In this document: positions 54,016 to 55,404 of the stretch, in pieces
Layout of the letters: every line of letters starts with the position of its first letter
Position numbering within the stretch: position 1 is the first letter of the stretch
Source: Parapedobacter pyrenivorans
GTDB taxonomy: Bacteria; Bacteroidota; Bacteroidia; Sphingobacteriales; Sphingobacteriaceae
Direction of reading: 5' to 3'
NCBI RefSeq assembly: GCF_014636865.1
Contig: NZ_BMER01000004.1
Coordinates: 248,001 to 312,000, forward strand
DNA length: 64,000 nucleotides
Position numbers and translations under genes: made by a program
Notes under the pieces: generated by a model
What the model was told of the DNA's origin: nothing
Databases searched by the model: none
What the model saw: the letters and a program-made list of their open reading frames with translations, nothing else

Positions 54016-54415
54016 TTAATCTATTAAGTACCTTCCTCTCTAAAAAGTGTGCAAAAATACGATTTTTCTAATCATATAAACTGATTTTCTTGGAAAAAGT
54101 TGTCTGATTTAGAGGAAATTATCCGATATTTTTACTAAACATTCTTCATCAAAAAGTGTTCCAAACATTCAAACGGCTGTTTTAGCTTTAAAATATTGAT
54201 ATAAAATCAATAATTATTTAATATCAATAAAAATAGGTTGATTATCAATATGAACCGGTTAGCATTGTTGATTGAATATGAGAGAATTGTGACAGAGCAG
54301 ATTTGATGCAATCGGTCTAATTAATTGATAATGAAGATCCAACGTGTATATTGTCAAATATAACGATATCTATCATAGGCGGTTTAGCGGTGATGATGCA
54401 AGCTATCGCTGGTGA
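54016..54415. other. A+T-rich control region upstream of rpoD
   Basis: 400 bp with no gene. It contains the rpoD promoter (54052-54059) and, at 54194-54250, four copies of an 8-bp motif TATCAATA: inverted at 54194-54201, with one mismatch at 54205-54212, exact at 54222-54229 and 54243-54250. No terminator for fmt was seen. Confidence 0.6.
54052..54059 (-). promoter_or_regulatory. rpoD promoter -7 element
   Basis: CAAAAATA reads TATTTTTG on the minus strand, a full consensus match. Transcription would start near 54047. Confidence 0.6.
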
Positions 54416-55333
54416 TTAAAACCGGAATCCCCGGAGGAATTCTTTGACATCCATCCGCTTTTTCCCTTCCAGCTGCAGCTCTTTTACCGTGATGTAACCA
54501 TCCTGACAGGCAAATTTTAAAAACGACTTGCCATCGGTGTAAGGGGTTCCTGGTTCATGTTGCGTTGGCATCTCGTCTTTTTCGGCCTTAAAAAGCTTTA
54601 AGGTTTTTCCATCCAATAACGTGTATGCGGTGGGATAAGGACTGAGCCCCCTAATCAGGTTGTAGACCACAGCGATGGGCTTATTCCATGTTATCAGGCA
54701 GTCTTCCTTAAAGATTTTTGGTGCGTGTTTGAGTTCGGTACCTGCCGCTGCTCGATCCTGCGGAATGGGTTCGATTTTGCCCTGTGCAATAGCCCTAACC
54801 GTTTTGACCAGCAAATCGGCCCCCACTACCATAAGCCTATCATGTAAATCACCTGCGGTATCGTCGGGGCCGATGTTCACCTTTTCGGAAAAAAGAATAT
54901 TTCCAGTATCGATTTCGTGTTGGAGGAGGAAGGTGCTGACCCCACTCTCCGTTTCGCCGTTGATGAGGGCATGGTTGATCGGAGCGGCCCCGCGGTATTG
55001 GGGCAGGAGGGAAGCATGCAGATTCACCGTGCCCGCAGGCGGCATATTCCAAACGACTTCCGGAAGCATCCGGAAAGCGACCACCACCTGTAAATCGGCA
55101 TCTAGTAATTTCAAATGGGCTAGAAAATCGGGATCACGTAATTTTTCGGGTTGCAAAACCGGTATTCCGTTCGCATCGGCATATTGCTTTACTGCAGACT
55201 GTTGTAGGTGCCTCCCGCGCCCGGCGGGCTTGTCGGGTGCTGTGATCACCGCCACAATATCTTCGCCTGCATGGATTAATGCTGCTAAAGAAGCCACGGC
55301 GAATTCGGGAGTACCCATGAAGATGATGCGCAT
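54416..55333 (-). CDS. fmt: methionyl-tRNA formyltransferase
   Basis: 305 residues. The N-terminal Rossmann domain begins MRIIFMGTPEFAVASL and contains the formyltransferase signature VNLHASLLPQYRGAAPI (about 110-126), with the catalytic Asn/His/Asp set of this enzyme class and the SLLP motif. The C-terminal OB-fold (about 205-305) binds tRNA. It adds a formyl group from 10-formyl-tetrahydrofolate to initiator Met-tRNA. It shares a palindromic divergent promoter with the permease gene on the other strand. Confidence 0.96.
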   Translation of the reverse strand: MRIIFMGTPEFAVASLAALIHAGEDIVAVITAPDKPAGRGRHLQQSAVKQYADANGIPVLQPEKLRDPDFLAHLKLLDADLQVVVAFRMLPEVVWNMPPAGTVNLHASLLPQYRGAAPINHALINGETESGVSTFLLQHEIDTGNILFSEKVNIGPDDTAGDLHDRLMVVGADLLVKTVRAIAQGKIEPIPQDRAAAGTELKHAPKIFKEDCLITWNKPIAVVYNLIRGLSPYPTAYTLLDGKTLKLFKAEKDEMPTQHEPGTPYTDGKSFLKFACQDGYITVKELQLEGKKRMDVKEFLRGFRF

Positions 55334-55370
55334 CAGTTGTTTCTAATTTCGTATTTCTAATCTCGTATCT

Positions 55371-55386
55371 TACCTTTGCAAAGTTA
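55371..55386. promoter_or_regulatory. palindromic bidirectional promoter (two back-to-back -7 boxes)
   Basis: TACCTTTG (55371-55378, plus strand) is directly followed by CAAAGTTA (55379-55386), which reads TAACTTTG on the minus strand. Both are full TAnnTTTG matches with no base between. Plus transcription would start near 55383 towards the permease gene, and minus transcription near 55374 towards fmt. Only one polymerase could occupy the site at a time. Confidence 0.65.
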
Positions 55387-55404
55387 TAAATTATATCGAG
55401 AGGC

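Follow-up and report, generated by a model that had tools for sequence, protein, structure and literature searches.

The stretch of DNA analysed here, a window of 64,000 nucleotides from Parapedobacter pyrenivorans, contains an exact 16-letter palindrome, TACCTTTGCAAAGTTA, between two divergently oriented genes (Table 1). The gene on the minus strand is fmt, whose closest named matches are to P. soli and P. composti. The gene on the plus strand (lolC) encodes a permease whose best NCBIfam match, lolCE, scores below the equivalog cut-off, and its name therefore stops at 'LolC/E-type'. Each half of the palindrome corresponds to the -7 box TAnnTTTG of the Bacteroidota housekeeping (sigma-A) promoter (PMC9723704, PMC7366714), and each has a usual spacing to its start codon, 34 nt for the permease and 53 nt for fmt, counted from the beginning of the box. 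The letters confirm the report of the earlier note that two full matches stand on opposite strands with no spacer between them. A core promoter element with dyad symmetry thus stands between two divergent genes, which is one feature of prokaryotic bidirectional promoters.

Table 1. Features of the fmt/permease intergenic region and its flanking genes (window coordinates)
Feature	Position	Strand	Remarks
fmt, methionyl-tRNA formyltransferase, 305 aa	54416..55333	-	ATG at 55333; NCBIfam fmt above cut-off (equivalog)
-7 box TACCTTTG, permease gene	55371..55378	+	predicted -12 to -5; half is TANCTTTG in nearly all fmt-neighbour relatives
Predicted fmt transcription start, G	55374	-	leader 41 nt; placed from the box at -12 to -5 (PMC9723704)
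-7 box of fmt	55379..55386	-	plus-strand letters CAAAGTTA, i.e. TAACTTTG on the minus strand; abuts the permease box head to head
Predicted permease transcription start, G	55383	+	leader 22 nt; placed from the box at -12 to -5 (PMC9723704)
A/T-rich stretch adjoining the fmt-side box, early permease leader	55387..55396		A-run at +6 to +10 family-wide (profile, alignment)
LolC/E-type (FtsX-like) ABC permease, 406 aa	55405..56625	+	TTG start; best NCBIfam match lolCE; Pfam FtsX, MacB_PCD

The TTG start codon of the permease gene is conserved: of more than 100 relatives almost all have it, GTG or ATG being rare. Retention of such a weak codon suggests that translation is deliberately kept low. The fmt leader contains an imperfect 14-bp tandem repeat, TTTCTAATTTCGTA TTTCTAATCTCGTA, at 55340-55367; a similar repeat with changes is seen in some Parapedobacter, and it is absent from the sampled parts of two other genomes. 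At the other end of fmt, a 400-bp A/T-rich spacer (54016-54415) separates the gene from one for a sigma-70 (RpoD-type) factor, and short pieces of this spacer, AAAAAGTGTTCCAAA and ATTGTGACAGA, are found again at the corresponding position of several Parapedobacter.

The Bacteroidota -7 box occupies positions -12 to -5 (PMC9723704). Transcription starts predicted from this position diverge and are 9 bp apart, each lying within the box of the other gene; the earlier note had the starts crossing over, which is wrong. Leader medians of 24 and 32 nt have been reported for two Bacteroidota. Warman, Grainger and colleagues have described bidirectional promoters in E. coli and in other prokaryotes, with 18, 10 and 23 bp as common start spacings (PMC12825309), and the predicted 9 bp fits the 10 bp class when small shifts are allowed. 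A -33 element (TTTG or TTG at about 19-21 bp) is absent on both sides, with only a TTC at 19 bp on both strands. Since the -33 motif also escaped identification in F. johnsoniae (PMC7366714), its absence is weakly diagnostic. Because the two polymerase positions overlap fully, one orientation would be bound at a time. The earlier note had described the promoter as mutually exclusive, with the two genes competing for one polymerase. The overlap of the sites holds and makes mutual exclusion a steric expectation, while competition between the directions is unproven. In E. coli, the two directions of such promoters do not compete at basal activity, which is too low for it, and begin to do so only upon activation (PMC12825309); 'mutually exclusive' should therefore not be read as 'competing'.

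The properties of ordinary -7 boxes were determined in 864 kb of the window genome and 400 kb of each of two relatives, with gene calls from a home-made program that overlooks some genes. In the three genomes TAnnTTTG is strongly directional: co-directional upstream regions contain 95 sense versus 18 antisense matches. The boxes cluster 20-60 nt before start codons, a range into which both window boxes fall. A or C at -6 is a weakly tolerated variant (43 sense versus 22 antisense pooled, ∼2-fold), and changes at -7 are avoided. The ordinary boxes of these genomes have no mirrored half downstream and no AAnnTA; an ortholog comparison of the sequence downstream of them covered 9 pairs only, which is too few. 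Among 176 divergent spacers in the three genomes, the perfect zero-gap arrangement is found once, at the lolC/fmt locus of the window genome; with the -6 and -12 variants allowed, the one further case is the same locus in genome G023.

Boxes placed back to back with a 2-bp gap, CAAANNTANNTANNTTTG, were also observed. There are three in 864 kb, more than for any other gap; each of them (G000:C4:30225, G000:C1:318316 and 329981) is intergenic, with a gene following 23-37 nt away. In G006, several back-to-back sites resemble CAAACTTAGATAAATTTG. The CAAANNTANNTANNTTTG form is possibly a regulator site or another form of two-way promoter.

We read ∼110 permease upstream regions of Sphingobacteriaceae. 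The earlier note had made its proposal depend on conservation of the palindrome upstream of fmt in relatives, and the proposal passed that test: the head-to-head element is present in 28 of the 31 genomes with a divergent fmt, representing 5 of 6 genera and all nine Parapedobacter, at 30-36 nt before the TTG start of the permease gene. The three exceptions are the only g19 genome, a g16 genome with a core of TGT for TGC in an otherwise intact palindrome, and a g20 genome showing a shift of one base. On the fmt strand, the nine Parapedobacter spacers read TACCTTTGCAAAGGTA, TACCTTCGCAAAGGTA, TACTTTTGCAAAGATA/GTA or the form of the window. All named loci with lolC directly divergent from fmt (Parapedobacter, Olivibacter, Sphingobacterium) carry the element. 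This conservation in relatives is beyond chance and confirms that the element is real.

The constant part of the element is the permease half, which is TANCTTTG in nearly all fmt-neighbour relatives. In the fmt-side half, TA is kept in 28 and TT in all of the 29 scored fmt-neighbour relatives. Across these relatives the fmt side does not follow the sigma-A consensus TAnnTTTG as a rule: the box is perfect at 6 of the 29 loci, all in Parapedobacter (6 of the 9 in the genus), and the remaining boxes have TTCG or TTAG, i.e. C or A for T(-6). Since A or C at -6 is weakly tolerated, the fmt-side half of the relatives looks weaker, not dead. Immediately upstream of the palindrome, some Sphingobacterium carry a perfect TAAWTTTG box that could provide an alternative fmt start.

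In other lineages the divergent gene is namZ (Pfam NamZ_N, NamZ_C), with fmt next in line. Most of these carry GCAnnTTTGCnAAnnTACAAAA, with C in place of T at -12 of the permease half and TAnnTT[AC]G as the other half. In genera g4, g13 and g18 the lolC half is mostly kept and the reverse half is lost. Both fmt and namZ neighbours occur within g15 and within g20, with the element present, and consequently the adjacent gene has been exchanged and the element retained. It may at first have served lolC and namZ-fmt, with fmt taking it over in lineages that lost namZ, if we read the polarity of the change correctly.

A profile anchored on the permease half only, genus-weighted and built from 105 loci in 18 genera, describes the eight bases that follow the permease box. 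The mirrored G, TT and TA positions carry 1.24, 1.22, 1.32, 0.86 and 1.10 bits, and the mirrored -6 and nn positions carry 0.42, 0.48 and 0.35 bits. The -7 mask ranks first among the 56 choices of five from eight positions. The profile supports the view that the conserved positions are those of a second -7 box in reverse orientation, and profile and conservation together are those of a symmetric element under selection rather than a chance match. The bidirectional promoter proposed in the earlier note gains from both; its full double consensus does not extend beyond the six Parapedobacter, the TTCG or TTAG of the others standing against it.

The serious rival is a one-way permease promoter, in which the mirrored half would be the first transcribed bases and early leader, kept for promoter escape or translation, with fmt starting elsewhere. 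Such a promoter would account for the constancy of the permease half, for a fmt half that mostly lacks T(-6) and has been lost in three genera, and for the A-run at +6 to +10, which in the 105-locus profile extends conservation into the permease leader. It does not account for the exact match of both the free positions (nn, -6) and the conserved ones to a reversed -7 box, or for the lack of AAnnTA at that place in ordinary promoters. The fmt strand of the window spacer, moreover, has no TAnnTTNG box besides the half at 55379..55386, and thus no other near-consensus box from which fmt might start. We regard the one-way promoter as unlikely, though it deserves to be taken seriously; lolC loci with another divergent partner or none are too few to separate these two main readings.

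The frequency of the palindrome was compared with that of control sequences. In the 5.9 Mb genome of the window, TANNTTTGCAAANNTA occurs once and its mirrored control three times; since the control outnumbers it, the match in this one genome does not exceed chance. The phylum-level search that the earlier note had suggested gave no over-representation either: in 149 Bacteroidia genomes there are 308 palindrome sites versus 288 and 280 per strand (∼284) for a composition-matched control, the same pattern with the reverse TA swapped to AT. A twofold excess suggested by a mirrored-sequence control was discarded, as that control contains CpG and is not promoter-like. Taken by themselves, the counts in the window genome and in Bacteroidia are those expected if a lone permease -7 box stood beside a meaningless mirror match. 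However, several genera have this head-to-head arrangement at the corresponding position, with permease and fmt proteins that share only ∼50-80% identity with those of the window, and chance is strongly disfavoured, to the point of being very improbable.

The Bacteroidia palindrome sites are mostly intergenic, as promoters would be. In a non-random sample, 33 of 77 palindromes lie between divergent genes and 16 of 77 have both start codons within 70 nt, compared with 7 and 2 of 30 controls, respectively. This context is suggestive, not decisive; it hints at further bidirectional cases, and no class is proven. Candidates for further two-way promoters are the TAnnTTTGCAAAnnTA sites in L354, L361, L370, L371 and L372 (near position 1500), which belong to other Bacteroidia families and have both divergent start codons 22-49 nt away. 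Perfect palindromes TACCTTTGCAAAGGTA or TAACTTTGCAAAGTTA were also seen elsewhere in relatives, at G014:C1:2729199, G070:C5:187945, G022:C86:45018 and G090:C3:291829.

Near-perfect dyad symmetry is also what the operator of a dimeric regulator would have, here overlapping the permease promoter and controlling one or both genes, and the nn bases are symmetric at many fmt-neighbour loci (CC/CC at 12 and AC/AC at 11 of 29). However, the symmetry ends at the ends of the boxes, and the nn bases are mostly asymmetric where namZ is the neighbour. Within the family, TAMCTTNGCNAAGKTA is essentially confined to the lolC/fmt locus, which holds 25 of the 47 sites; because the remaining 22 are matched by the mirrored control (21), there is no regulon. 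A regulator regulon was accordingly rejected, as the genomes do not have several sites each above control. We consider an operator improbable. A structured RNA was rejected as well, with no Rfam match.

We believe that the palindrome is probably the core of one bidirectional housekeeping-sigma promoter made of two abutting -7 boxes. One box would start the permease gene at ∼55383 (+) and the other would start fmt, elsewhere the namZ-fmt unit, at ∼55374 (-), the overlapping polymerase positions leaving a single orientation bound at a time. From the sequence, its conservation and the conserved positions we infer both starts, use in two directions and steric exclusion. A stronger claim must be called doubtful, namely that this is an ancient Sphingobacteriaceae bidirectional promoter with two facing -7 boxes and a distance of ∼9 bp between the starts, and that strict either-or binding of one polymerase links the outputs of a lipoprotein-export-type permease and, through namZ-fmt or fmt, of the initiator-tRNA formylase.

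As a bidirectional promoter, the element would belong to a known kind and differ in its geometry, that of two abutting -7 boxes. It resembles the E. coli promoters (PMC12825309) in its short symmetric core, in its predicted divergent starts at a spacing of ∼10 bp and in opposing polymerases that would be unable to bind together. The E. coli promoters share one -10 element, whereas the lolC/fmt site has two whole eight-base -7 boxes with no shared bases; divergent transcription has been measured in E. coli (PMC12825309) and is predicted at lolC/fmt. The second promoter motif of B. thetaiotaomicron, PM2 (PMC7366714), is likewise near-palindromic, lies upstream of starts and belongs to the same phylum. 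PM2, compared here by its description, has elements at -10 and -30 and is associated with lowly expressed genes (PMC7366714). In the literature searched, we found no description for Bacteroidota of two facing TAnnTTTG copies at one site.

Prokaryotes of all kinds are said to have bidirectional promoters, and the literature searched contained none built on the Bacteroidota -7 box. At this locus, comparative genomics shows an element that several genera have retained through changes of the adjoining gene. A -7 box with TTTGCA at its end contains the palindromic core TGCA from the outset, and therefore few further changes would make a two-way promoter; this overlap suggests how such an element can arise. 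The relatives, with one or two perfect halves, form a small natural set of promoters that would suit the measurement of polymerase competition.
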